Under the pieces are notes generated by a model. The model saw only the letters and a list, made by a program, of their open reading frames with translations. It searched no databases and was not told where the DNA came from. A DNA stretch of 64,000 nt from Candidatus Thiodiazotropha endolucinida (GTDB lineage: Bacteria; Pseudomonadota; Gammaproteobacteria; Chromatiales; Chromatiaceae), in contig NZ_MARB01000001.1 in NCBI RefSeq assembly GCF_001715975.1, positions 1 to 64,000 of the forward strand. Reading direction: 5' to 3'. Every line of letters starts with the position of its first letter. Within the stretch, counting starts at the first letter, position 1. This document shows, piece after piece, positions 2,504 through 8,028 of this stretch. Position numbers and translations under genes: made by a program.

Positions 2504-2518
2504 AGTGAATAAGTCACA
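2504..2518. promoter_or_regulatory. Putative Crp-like operator, copy 1
   Basis: AGTGA-ATAAG-TCACA is an inverted repeat with a 5-bp spacer, inside a 17-bp block almost identical to the one at 3368-3384. It lies 60-100 bp upstream of the unknown protein gene at 2582/2609. The half-site TCACA is what a regulator with the E. coli CRP recognition residues would contact, but CRP spacing is 6 bp, so the assignment to the Crp-type protein at 7283 is inference. Confidence 0.45.
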
Positions 2519-2581
2519 TCCTGTAGTGGCGTCATGTCATATGAGATGCCGTTTAAGAAGTGAAATAGTGTTCCGCAGAGG

Positions 2582-3271
2582 GTGAAGCGTCGGATTGAGG
2601 GCCTGCTGATGGATCACATGGAGCCAAATGATGCCTGCGGAGAAAACAGCTTAAATGAGCCGATATTGACAAGAAATGTCCTTTTGGCAAACCTTTTTGC
2701 CGGCAAACTGGCACCCAGAGAGGTATTGCGGGTTGCTAGGAGATATTCAACCGTCACCCACTGGGAGGAGTTGCTGTGTGTGGCGTTCAATCCGACTGAT
2801 TCACGGCTGATGGCAGTGGTCAGTATTCGTCAGTCGGATGGTTACAGCGGGATACTGCGGCGACACGGCTCAATCGAATATGTCAGGTTTTTTATCGATT
2901 GGGGCGATGGTGAGGGGCTGCAGACAGCAGGGCTGAGCCACTTCAAAGTGTGCGATGCGATTGATGCGGGGATCAAGCGGCAGCTTCCGGTCTATCATCT
3001 TGTCTCCTGTGGATTCGAGATCGCTCGCTACAGGCGTGCCATCAGGCATGGTGCCCAGCCTAAAGTGAGGGCTGTGCTGTCATGGAACCAAGTACCAGGC
3101 CTGGATGCTGAATTTATACCTGTATTCGGTAACCAGGTCGATTCACAAATCAGCATCGACTCCGATCAAGAGTTGACCTCGTTGTTCAGTATTGCCGAGG
3201 ATCTGTCGGAAAAAGCCATGTTGCATTTAGGATCCAGGCAACCGTACGCTCAGGCGGCGGGTATCCAGTGA
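2582..3271 (+). CDS. Conserved-looking protein of unknown function
   Basis: A 229-residue soluble protein if it starts at GTG 2582; ATG at 2609 or 2618 are alternatives, and 2609 has a GAGGG upstream. I do not recognise a named family. The centre holds a run reading VSIRQSDGYSGILRRHGS followed by EYVRFFIDWGDGEG and a YHLVSCGFEIARYRRA block. This looks like an all-beta domain with a conserved F(I/V)DWGDG signature. There is no signal peptide or membrane segment. It stands alone between two copies of the GTGA-N5-TCACA box (2504, 3369), so it may belong to the same regulon as its neighbours. Confidence 0.75.
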   Translation: MKRRIEGLLMDHMEPNDACGENSLNEPILTRNVLLANLFAGKLAPREVLRVARRYSTVTHWEELLCVAFNPTDSRLMAVVSIRQSDGYSGILRRHGSIEYVRFFIDWGDGEGLQTAGLSHFKVCDAIDAGIKRQLPVYHLVSCGFEIARYRRAIRHGAQPKVRAVLSWNQVPGLDAEFIPVFGNQVDSQISIDSDQELTSLFSIAEDLSEKAMLHLGSRQPYAQAAGIQ

Positions 3272-3368
3272 GCTTAACCGATTAGGCACACTGGCAACAC
3301 CTGATGACTACTCCCTGCCTAATTCCATCATATCTCCAGACTAATACAAAGAATGCATCGATGTGACA

Positions 3369-3383
3369 AGTGAAAAAGTCACA
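3369..3383. promoter_or_regulatory. Putative Crp-like operator, copy 2
   Basis: AGTGA-AAAAG-TCACA has the same spacing and flanks as the copy at 2504 (AAGTGAA-AAGTCACAT shared). An outer TGTGAC (3362-3367) also pairs with GTCACA, giving a larger palindrome. It lies about 180 bp upstream of the start at 3560 that leads into the sugar transferase. Confidence 0.45.
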
Positions 3384-3559
3384 TATCCCACGTGCTCCTT
3401 TCGATACTTACAAGCAGTCAGTATCTGAAATCATATTCCCATACAGGATCTTCCTGTCAGCCCATTATCCATAGGCCTTCAAATTACTGATTAATGGAGA
3501 TAGTGGCCGGGCTGCGTAGGAGATCAATAACAGAATAATTAGGAGTGAGGAGAGCGACT

Positions 3560-3754
3560 ATGAGCGGAGAATATGACTCTGTTTCCAGTGATTTCAATAA
3601 TGACTATCAACTGGATCATATCAGTACAACCGATTCGCTGGTGTTATCAACCCACTGGCTTCGATCAGGGATTATCTGGTTTTCAATCAACTGGTCGTTT
3701 CCAGGGCCGCGACGCACGAGATACCCGGAAAAAGACAGTTCGATATCGTCATGA
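3560..3754 (+). other. 5' reading frame of the sugar transferase gene, out of frame
   Basis: ATG at 3560 follows a strong AGGAGTGAGGAG ribosome-binding stretch. The frame codes MSGEYDSVSSDFNNDYQLDH and then becomes tryptophan- and arginine-rich before ending at 3754, where it overlaps the ATG at 3751 (ATGA). The transferase frame is itself open back to 3604 with good codon use and a family-like approach (IPGKRQFDI) to the first membrane helix, but it has no ATG or GTG there. The simplest reading is one gene with a -1 shift between about 3604 and 3650. Translational coupling of two ORFs is the alternative. Confidence 0.5.
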
Positions 3755-4305
3755 GTGTACTGATTCTTGTGCTCGTGAGTCCGGTTATGCTCACCACCAT
3801 GACGCTGATCTGGCTGAGCACATTAGGGCGTGACCCTGTCTTCTATCGTCAACTTCGTGTCGGTCACAGGGGTCGCGAATTTTATATTCTGAAATTCAGG
3901 AGCATGCGGGTCGATGCGGAGAAGTCAGGACCACAGATGGCGAGCGTGAACGACGCCCGCGTAACACGTATCGGCCGGGTTTTGCGCAGCACGCGCATTG
4001 ATGAGCTGCCGCAACTGTTGAATGTGTTGAAAGGTGAGATGAGTCTGGTTGGACCTCGGCCGGAGAGACCCGAGTTTGTTTCGCGTTTTCAAAAAAAGAT
4101 CAACGGTTATGCACTCAGGCATCAGGTAAAACCGGGTATCACCGGCTGGGCCCAAGTGCGATATCCCTATGGTGAGACAGTCGAAGACGCCGCGAACAAG
4201 CTCTACTACGACCTCAGTTATATTCGTCGTAACAGTCTGTGGATGGACATCCTGATTCTTTTTCAAACCATACCCGTGGTATTGACCGGGCATGGTGCAA
4301 GGTAG
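3751..4305 (+). CDS. Bacterial sugar transferase (undecaprenyl-phosphate glycosyl-1-phosphate transferase type)
   Basis: The 184 residues from ATG 3751 form the C-terminal catalytic domain of the WbaP/PglC superfamily: one membrane helix, [21 protein letters not shown], the [26 protein letters not shown] signature region and [10 protein letters not shown]. Such enzymes load the first sugar phosphate onto undecaprenyl phosphate for exopolysaccharide or O-antigen. The 3751 start cuts into the membrane helix, whose conserved lead-in KRQFDIV lies just upstream in the same frame, so the true N-terminus is probably longer (see 3560-3754). No other polysaccharide genes are nearby, so its product is unclear. 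Confidence 0.85.
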
Positions 4306-4403
4306 TGACTGATGGTAACTGACTGCTGAGGAAGCTCTGATTTGTTCGGAGTTTTCCCGACAATTCCGGGTAGATGGCTTTGATGACTAAATAGAGGTCA
4401 TTA

Positions 4404-7051: not shown

Positions 7052-7067
7052 TTGGTTTTCCCTGGTT

Positions 7068-7084
7068 TGATGAGACAGTCATCA
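7068..7084. promoter_or_regulatory. TGATGA-N5-TCATCA palindrome in the cyclase leader
   Basis: A perfect inverted repeat with a 5-bp spacer (GACAG), about 17 bp upstream of the cyclase start. It keeps the TGA-N5-TCA core and spacing of the boxes at 2504, 3369 and 8014, but with a different outer base pair. It may be a divergent operator for the same regulator or an unrelated RNA hairpin near the start codon. Confidence 0.3.
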
Positions 7085-7270
7085 CCAGTTTGGGGGAGCT
7101 TTGCGTCGATTTCGAACTGGTATGTGGCATTTTTTCTGTTAAAGTCTTATAAGGTGTTTCTCGATGTGCTTTGCGATTGTCATGTAAGGATAAAGAGCGA
7201 TTGCACAATATATTGTAGTAGGGTGTTTATTGAGCGTTTGTGCCATGCAACCGTTTCCGAATAGAGAGTA

Positions 7271-7276
7271 TATAAT
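7271..7276 (+). promoter_or_regulatory. TATAAT -10 element directly before the crp-like start
   Basis: A perfect TATAAT ends 6 bp before the ATG at 7283. If it is used as a -10 box, transcription would begin at about the A of the ATG, which would make the message leaderless. No good -35 match is seen 17 bp upstream, and no clear Shine-Dalgarno sequence precedes the ATG at normal spacing. Confidence 0.35.
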
Positions 7277-7282
7277 ACGATT

Positions 7283-7927
7283 ATGATTGAGAACGTCTCC
7301 ATTTTTGAAGGGATGGCTCCTAGCGATCTGGCATTGATAGAACAGCGCATGGTTCGCCGGACCTACCCAAGAAATACCATTATTCTTTCTGAAGGGGATA
7401 ATAGTGATTCACTCTACGTCATTCTGAGTGGTAGAGTGAAAGTTTATCTCAATGACGAAAACGGCAAAGAGGCGATCATCAACTATCAGGAAGCCGGCGA
7501 GTATTTCGGAGAACTCTCCCTGATAGATGATTACAAACGATCAGCTTCAATCATGACTATGGTCAAGTCAACCATGGCGATTATGTCCAAACAAGCATTC
7601 CACCAAGTCATGAAGAGCAATCCGGATATCGCCATTCATCTGTTGAAGGATATGGTGCACAGGGTTAGAACATTGACCAATGAGGTCAAGAGCCTGGTGC
7701 TATCGGATGTCTATGGACGGCTAAGCAAAACCCTTTTGAGCATGGCAATAGAACGGGATGGTATAATGGTTATCGAGGGCCATGTCACCCAACAGGAACT
7801 GGCAAACCGGATTGGCGCTTCACGGGAAATGGTCTGCCGCATCTTCAAGGATCTGGTGAAAGGTGGATATATCACTACCGGTTCCAATCAGTTCACCATC
7901 AATAAGCAACTGCCCGCACGCTACTGA
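7283..7927 (+). CDS. Crp/Fnr-family regulator with cAMP-CRP-like residues
   Basis: A 214-residue protein: cyclic-nucleotide-binding domain (residues 1-115) with the phosphate cassette FGELSLIDDYKRSAS (FGEL 75-78, R86, S87), a dimer helix, then a winged helix-turn-helix (about 168-200). The recognition helix SREMVCRIFKDL keeps R181, E182 and R186, which correspond to the E. coli CRP residues that read GTGA. No Fnr-type cysteine cluster is present. Together with the divergent cyclase at 4898 and GTGA/TCAC boxes in the neighbourhood, it probably responds to cAMP or cGMP. Its targets are inferred only. Confidence 0.92.
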   Translation: MIENVSIFEGMAPSDLALIEQRMVRRTYPRNTIILSEGDNSDSLYVILSGRVKVYLNDENGKEAIINYQEAGEYFGELSLIDDYKRSASIMTMVKSTMAIMSKQAFHQVMKSNPDIAIHLLKDMVHRVRTLTNEVKSLVLSDVYGRLSKTLLSMAIERDGIMVIEGHVTQQELANRIGASREMVCRIFKDLVKGGYITTGSNQFTINKQLPARY

Positions 7928-8013
7928 GGCATACTCCTGTCTTTACTCTTTGACCCGAATCACTGACGCTAACAACGGTCTTCCCTGTTTGGATAAATAG
8001 GTCACAGCATGGG

Positions 8014-8028
8014 TGTGAATATTTCACA
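8014..8028. promoter_or_regulatory. Putative Crp-like operator, copy 3
   Basis: TGTGA-ATATT-TCACA is a perfect inverted repeat around one central base, 77 bp upstream of the probable protease start (8105). An extra TCACA half-site lies at 8002-8006. The 5-bp spacer matches the copies at 2504 and 3369. Confidence 0.5.

Follow-up and report, generated by a model that had tools for sequence, protein, structure and literature searches.

Contig 1 of the genome of Candidatus Thiodiazotropha endolucinida, a symbiont of lucinid clams (4.49 Mb in 55 contigs), has within its initial 64 kb, hereafter referred to as the window, a 5.5 kb cluster in which three short inverted repeats of the form GTGA-N5-TCAC, here termed N5 boxes, precede a gene for a protein of unknown function (the 2582 gene), a sugar transferase gene and a gene for a C25 (gingipain-like) protease. 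A preliminary description, made from the sequence alone, had reported near-identical repeats at 2504, 3369 and 8014 and had joined them with the CHASE2 cyclase and Crp-type protein encoded between them in a single regulon, by which a membrane signal would be relayed through a cyclic nucleotide to a surface protein. The repeats are present as reported, and Pfam matches agree with the identities given to the cyclase (CHASE2 and Guanylate_cyc domains, typical of a CHASE2 class III cyclase), the Crp-type protein (a cNMP_binding domain and a Crp-type helix-turn-helix (HTH), as in the CRP/FNR superfamily), the sugar transferase and the C25 protease (Table 1). The open reading frames (ORFs) beginning at 2582 and 4404 match no Pfam or NCBIfam family. 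Loci and genomes compared with the window are designated by L and G numbers, respectively.

Table 1. Features of the cluster, in window coordinates. L045 is a near-identical relative of the locus; offsets are from the box centre.
Feature	Position	Strand	Remarks
N5 box AGTGAATAAGTCACA	2504-2518	+	upstream of 2582 gene; kept in L045
-10-like TATGAG, +29	2540..2545	+	predicted; promoter of 2582 gene
Unknown protein of 229 aa, counted from the first listed start codon	2582..3271	+	box-preceded relatives in the genus share 53-94% identity
N5 box AGTGAAAAAGTCACA	3369-3383	+	upstream of sugar transferase
-10-like GATACT (+27) or TACTTA (+29)	3403..3410	+	predicted; sugar transferase
Bacterial sugar transferase, C-terminal 184 aa	3751..4305	+	PF02397; frame broken upstream when compared with L045
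Protein of unknown function, 148 aa	4404..4850	+	no family match
CHASE2 and class III nucleotide cyclase, 717 aa	4898..7051	-	PF05226, PF00211
TATAAT immediately before CRP gene	7271..7276	+	ends six bases before ATG (7271-7285)
CRP-family regulator, 214 aa, proposed box reader	7283..7927	+	PF00027, PF13545, PF00325 over cut-off
Conserved GTCACA half-site, about 22 bp upstream of 8014 box	8001..8006	+	role putative
N5 box TGTGAATATTTCACA	8014-8028	+	upstream of C25 protease
-10-like TAACCT, +29	8050..8055	+	predicted; C25 promoter
Inverted repeat TTGAG...CTCAA in C25 leader	8063..8080	+	from sequence
C25 (gingipain-like) peptidase with C25 propeptide	8087..10234	+	PF01364, PF08126; alternative ATG at 8105

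The motif is commoner in the window than chance would predict, with four occurrences of GTGA-N5-TCAC against 0.98 expected, a number reached in none of 100 shuffles; the version with a 6 bp spacer (N6) is not enriched, at two against 1.25. The fourth occurrence, at 21987, is inside the span of a long ORF (21440-23749), looks incidental and was excluded from the set. With a loose word, the genome scan proposed in the preliminary description provides weak evidence. The strict word GTGAAWWWKTCACA is found at four distinct places, against none for a control word, and three of these are within the cluster; the other, at 8435 on contig 23, precedes a 142 aa protein with a signal-like N-terminus, overlapped by a short 81 aa ORF. 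The loose word WGTGA-N5-TCACW occurs 21 times and its reversed control 11 times (21 against 12 for the N6 loose word and its control); it is largely noise and was rejected as a means of finding the regulon. Copying of a longer repeat as the origin of the boxes at 2504 and 3369 was ruled out, the surrounding 18-mer having one further genomic match at up to three mismatches (exactly three). The related TGA-N5-TCA palindrome described at 7068 exists, although among four relatives compared only L045 has it, it being absent from L046, L048 and L055, and it was dropped as a candidate regulatory site.

Across the class, N5 boxes accompany orthologs of the window CRP. Among 369 genomes, the box word GTGAATATKTCACA is present in 39, and 73, termed CRP+, encode a relative of the window CRP at E<=1e-40 (at most eight candidates were scored per genome, such that some CRP+ genomes may be missed). 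Boxes were found in 25/73 CRP+ and 14/296 CRP- genomes (odds ratio 10.5, p=1.1e-10; Fisher test on genome lists, as throughout, ignoring shared ancestry). No such link was found in these genomes for the reversed control word (2/73 and 5/296) or for the word with one extra base, which occurs in only nine genomes (3/73 and 6/296, p=0.39). A paralog of the CRP/Vfr type, represented by L039, is encoded by 189 of the 369, and overall the box is also commoner alongside it (31/189 against 8/180, p=1.6e-4). However, in genomes without a window-type CRP the frequencies with and without Vfr are alike (8/130 and 6/166), whereas in Vfr+ genomes the window-type CRP still makes a difference (23/59 with against 8/130 without, p=7.7e-8); in Vfr- genomes, the corresponding counts are 2/14 and 6/166. 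N5 boxes thus go with the window-type CRP, not independently with Vfr, and not as the N6 form. Similarly, at the family level a broader word was found in 11/25 CRP+ and 8/91 CRP- genomes (116 genomes, p=1.5e-4), or 7/21 and 8/91 with the genus itself removed (p=0.0075). GTGAATATKTCACA matches at 50 places, of which 16 belong to CRP- genomes and 34, one of them in the window itself, to CRP+ genomes; by a mechanical ORF rule, 26/33 places in CRP+ genomes and 5/16 in CRP- genomes are outside long ORFs (p=0.0019). Boxes are adjacent to the CRP ortholog in the window, L049, L070 and L068.

The spacing between boxes and putative promoters was analysed at the 33 class-level CRP+ sites outside the window and at 15 of the 16 CRP- sites (L214, a copy of L186, being dropped), using -10 weights from E. 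coli frequencies and shuffles that keep composition in 25-base blocks. A -10-like hexamer is found 28 or 29 bp downstream of the box centre at 13 of the 33 CRP+ sites, against 3.6 in shuffled sequences, and 51 or 52 bp downstream at 12, against 3.0, with none of 1000 shuffles giving as many in either case. These offsets were first noticed on largely the same sites, with both orientations counted, a choice allowed for in the value of p=0.001 for the best pair of offsets anywhere. Nothing significant was found on the opposite side of the box (5 and 5) or at the 15 CRP- sites (2 and 1). An offset of +29 corresponds to the -10 position given by a class II CRP site at -41, and +51/52 puts the box near -63. 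The hexamer at +29 from the C25-type box reads TAGCCT in L046 and L047, TAGTCT in L048, TATCCT in G007 and TAAATT in L051. At 5/33 sites, the box is followed by a second, canonical GTGA-N6-TCAC-like site (at least 7/10 letters), the centre of which is 22.5 bp further downstream; in 500 shuffles this number was never reached at a single offset. A class II site serving the +51/52 hexamer would have this position, so that N5 boxes and N6 sites seem to be arranged in tandem at some promoters.

The pair of N5 boxes at L245 (G491, 1502-1536), centred 22 bp from each other, precedes a gene for a secreted-looking protein with internal repeats. N5 boxes in two genera are found before Hcp genes of type VI secretion systems (T6SS), with TACAAT 28 bp from the box centre in each (L200 in G311 and L221 in G293). 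The C25 leader of L047 has, in the same place as the inverted repeat of the window, a different, still self-complementary CTGAGC...GCTCAG.

Conservation of the boxes in related genomes, another check suggested in the preliminary description, was examined. The closest named relatives of the C25 protease come from metagenome-assembled genomes (MAGs) of lucinid clam symbionts (Candidatus Thiodiazotropha and 'gamma proteobacterium symbiont of Ctena orbiculata'; 70-97% identity in the best segment), followed by those of a Glaciecola-like genome (65%), Acidobacteria (58%) and Cellvibrionaceae (57%), in a listing that may omit the source genome's own records. The strict word is present in 21/22 genomes of the genus, the one without it being G494 (2.6 Mb), and a pair of boxes 844-1216 bp apart in 14/22, including that of the window (865 bp). 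In the seven genomes in which the pair was read (G000, G007, G481, G484, G485, G487 and G495), one box coincides with or precedes the start of a 2582-type gene, and the other is upstream of a sugar transferase gene; both boxes read GTGAATATGTCACA in G007. Before the C25 gene, L045, L046 and L048 carry TGTGAATATTTCACA without change, and L047 differs from it by one base. Further afield, the Glaciecola-like L049 has two GTGAATATGTCACA boxes, one directly before its C25 gene, and the Cellvibrionaceae locus L051 has the N5 box GTGAATTTTTCACA in this position; no N5 box was found before the C25 gene of L050. G007 lacks a C25 gene at this place, yet keeps the box and its hexamer. There, as in three further genomes, an identical 57 aa ORF with a signal-like N-terminus replaces C25 behind a C25-type box (L112, L240, L251 and L242, in G007, G486, G498 and G488, respectively); the DNA itself is very similar, so the identity alone is no proof of a gene.

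The CRP-like protein was compared in an alignment of 59 rows, comprising the window and 58 loci (four of them repeats), with E. coli numbering placed through L039. As the preliminary description had stated for the window protein, the residues by which CRP reads GTGA are conserved: R180 in 59/59 rows, E181 in 58/59 and R185 in 54/59, with Lys in the other five. The phosphate pocket is likewise kept (E72 58/59, R82 59/59, S83 51/59). These residues, the domain order and the class II promoter spacing are common to E. coli CRP/CAP and Pseudomonas Vfr. By contrast, the T127-S128 adenine contacts of the cAMP-CRP/Vfr group are not kept in this alignment, T127 being replaced by Leu in 56/59 rows and Ile in three, and S128 by Thr in 54/59; in 54/59 rows, the loop preceding the HTH is reduced by 3-4 residues relative to L039; and, judged by association only, the spacer is N5 in place of the N6 of that group. 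The window protein scores 136.6 bits against the NCBIfam CRP equivalog NF008732, the cut-off of which is 266 bits, and is one of nine HTH_Crp_2 proteins over cut-off in the genome. Its mRNA looks leaderless, judging by the position of the TATAAT upstream, which is kept in L045, L046 and L048, and nearly so in L055.

A cyclase-like ORF is found in the fetched flank of the CRP ortholog at 28/54 distinct loci (29/58 listed, four of which repeat listed genes, one with a cyclase; the cyclase of L049 was itself one of the references). It is divergent from the CRP gene in 18/28, and this neighbourhood recurs across many families; no cyclase was seen at the other 26/54, mostly in flanks of 1.5 kb. For instance, L118 repeats the window arrangement (41% identity for the cyclase and 51% for CRP), and in L049 the CRP ortholog (4778-5416; 39.5%) is divergent from a cyclase with TPR repeats. 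Class III adenylyl cyclases select adenine by a Lys and an Asp. This pair is absent from the window cyclase, which has D and E at these places when compared with photoactivated cyclases, as have L064, L118 and L120; L049 and L142 differ. Given these atypical residues and the Leu at position 127, the ligand of the window-type CRP may not be cAMP.

Related systems have been described elsewhere. In Sinorhizobium meliloti, also a symbiont, the CHASE2 class III cyclases CyaD1, CyaD2 and CyaK feed the CRP-like regulator Clr (PMC13001267). Clr binds cAMP and cGMP with a TT ligand pair and has the core site GTNNCNNNNGNNAC (PMC10127613), as against the LT pair and GTGA-N5-TCAC of the window type. The E. 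coli CRP operator is TGTGA-N6-TCACA, as quoted in PMC8465061. The same paper concerns Thermus SdrP (TTHA1359), a CRP/FNR member for which an earlier study cited there suggested a class II activator role; its consensus is also N6, and spacers of 5 or 7 bp eliminated observable binding, which makes a CRP reading N5 sites unexpected. No printed CRP operator of the form GTGA-N5-TCAC, and no paper joining a CHASE2 adenylate cyclase, a CRP and a binding site in gammaproteobacteria, was found in searches of an open-access library.

In other CRP+ genomes, the closest credible ORF was taken as the gene behind each box, in some cases on the divergent side. Several of these genes have no family, and together they form an indicative list of apparently secreted, envelope and regulatory functions. 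Among the families are DUF6345 (three genes in two genomes), the M48 and M16 peptidases, OmpA, T6SS Hcp (two genomes) and MlaC; others are FecR/TPR/TonB-like, multicopper oxidase, FG-GAP, MMPL, beta-lactamase-fold, ATP-grasp and weak PAP2 proteins; and regulators comprise response regulators, a sigma-54 activator, a histidine kinase and a CRP-family protein, with PAP2 (L224) and one response regulator (L206) below the Pfam cut-off. DUF6345 proteins with GHG and a Cys, both invariant in three sequences, adjoin N5 boxes at L102/L108 and L107 (G070) and L109 (G024), and one box in G070 separates the CRP gene from a divergent DUF6345 gene. A clan CD relationship of DUF6345 to C25 is not claimed, as a profile comparison aligned only 12 columns, with a probability of 0.8%; no DUF6345 paper was found in a search of the open-access library. 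In the C25 protease, His483 of YRGHG and Cys523 of FAC, presumably the catalytic residues, are invariant in six sequences. The C25 domain, the propeptide and these conserved motifs are shared with gingipains and PorU, the sortase of the type IX secretion system, although at 45.4 bits against a cut-off of 420 the window protease is far below the PorU model and outside that family.

Elsewhere in the locus, alignment with L045, which has an uninterrupted 253 aa ORF, locates the break in the sugar transferase frame near its 5' end, at approximately 3560-3750. The sugar transferase reference used in reading the boxed genes of other genomes was translated from 3559 and contained stops, written as X. 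Two tandem genes for similar transporter-like membrane proteins (1-721 and 832-2307, - strand; approximately 51-54% identical) were seen through L045. The 2582-type domain is also found inside much larger proteins, at L050:6734-9007, next to C25 in an Acidobacteria MAG, and at L117:12580-14886, near the CRP gene of G024.

The best explanation, with a probability of roughly 0.75, is that the CRP-family protein encoded alongside (7283-7927) uses the N5 boxes as its operators; this protein would belong to a distinct gammaproteobacterial subfamily often encoded beside a class III cyclase. The preliminary description had left open whether the 5 bp spacer implies an altered geometry or another factor; the comparative evidence tilts this towards an altered geometry, and most probably the window-type CRP subfamily reads N5 sites itself. 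Several observations weigh against this explanation. The exact word is missing from 48/73 CRP+ genomes and present in 14 CRP- genomes, in tests that take no account of ancestry, and the enrichment of the loose word in the genome is mild. The -10 peaks are weak at the eight family-level sites (2, p=0.18; 3, p=0.045), the counterpart of the 2504 box in G007 has no -10 at +29, and that of the 3369 box in L045 has one changed base. Finally, the C-to-D helix length is the same as in Vfr, such that the protein sequence offers no obvious reason for N5, and the precedent of SdrP is one of intolerance to a 5 bp spacer.

The SdrP precedent also bears on the alternative that another regulator co-inherited with the window-type CRP, either a CRP paralog or an unrelated palindrome-binding factor, reads the boxes, since association is not binding and the genome encodes nine HTH_Crp_2 proteins. 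This is considered unlikely, as the -10 spacing is that of CRP-type class II activators, the GTGA-reading residues are kept, boxes are found next to CRP orthologs in four loci, and the Vfr control was negative within CRP- genomes. That control, together with the persisting effect of the window-type CRP in Vfr+ genomes, makes it very improbable that canonical CRP/Vfr of the L039 type simply tolerates N5 sites as part of an ordinary cAMP-CRP regulon, despite the overall association of Vfr with boxes and the N6 sites 22.5 bp from some of them. Chance palindromes, for which the modest excess of the loose word might be adduced, are contradicted by clustering, conservation, association and promoter spacing, and can practically be discounted. 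A different question, overlapping with the favoured explanation and assessed outside the same sum, is whether the boxes are operators of the window CRP while the adjacent cyclase is not its source of ligand, the protein being ligand-independent or drawing on another nucleotide pool. The replacement of T127, which as Ile or Leu is frequent among E. coli CRP* alleles (PMC2743635), the loci without a nearby cyclase and the atypical cyclase residues all speak for this; the kept phosphate pocket and the recurrence of the cyclase across many families speak against it, leaving it less likely than not.

If N5 boxes are operators of the window-type CRP, the membrane cyclase would respond to some stimulus at the cell surface by producing a cyclic nucleotide, allowing the CRP dimer to bind, or, T127 being Leu, the protein might do so with little ligand. 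Retaining its GTGA-reading residues, the dimer would engage half-sites separated by one base pair less than those of the canonical CRP operator and would activate from approximately -41, as a class II regulator, or from approximately -63, with a second site at approximately -41 in some promoters. In the window genome, its targets would be the C25 protease, the 2582 protein and the sugar transferase. The core of the circuit first proposed is supported by co-occurrence, -10 spacing and the recurrent cyclase, but the genes behind boxes elsewhere extend beyond surface proteins.

More tentatively, and with somewhat less than even confidence, these genes may represent a widespread, undescribed gammaproteobacterial system in which a class III, often CHASE2, cyclase is coupled to an 'LT-type' CRP acting on N5 operators, a single base pair separating its sites from the N6 cAMP-CRP/Vfr regulon of the same cell, with fixed 22.5 bp tandems perhaps being jointly read at some promoters and a ligand that is maybe not cAMP. 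CRP is a textbook case of a fixed two-fold operator geometry; if the N5 subfamily is real, it would reveal a way for two CRP-type regulators that share their reading residues to avoid each other in one cell. It would also provide the CHASE2 cyclases of Gammaproteobacteria with a likely output, and would make it possible to test directly, in bacteria that include clam symbionts, a regulon of secreted proteases, T6SS Hcp and envelope proteins.

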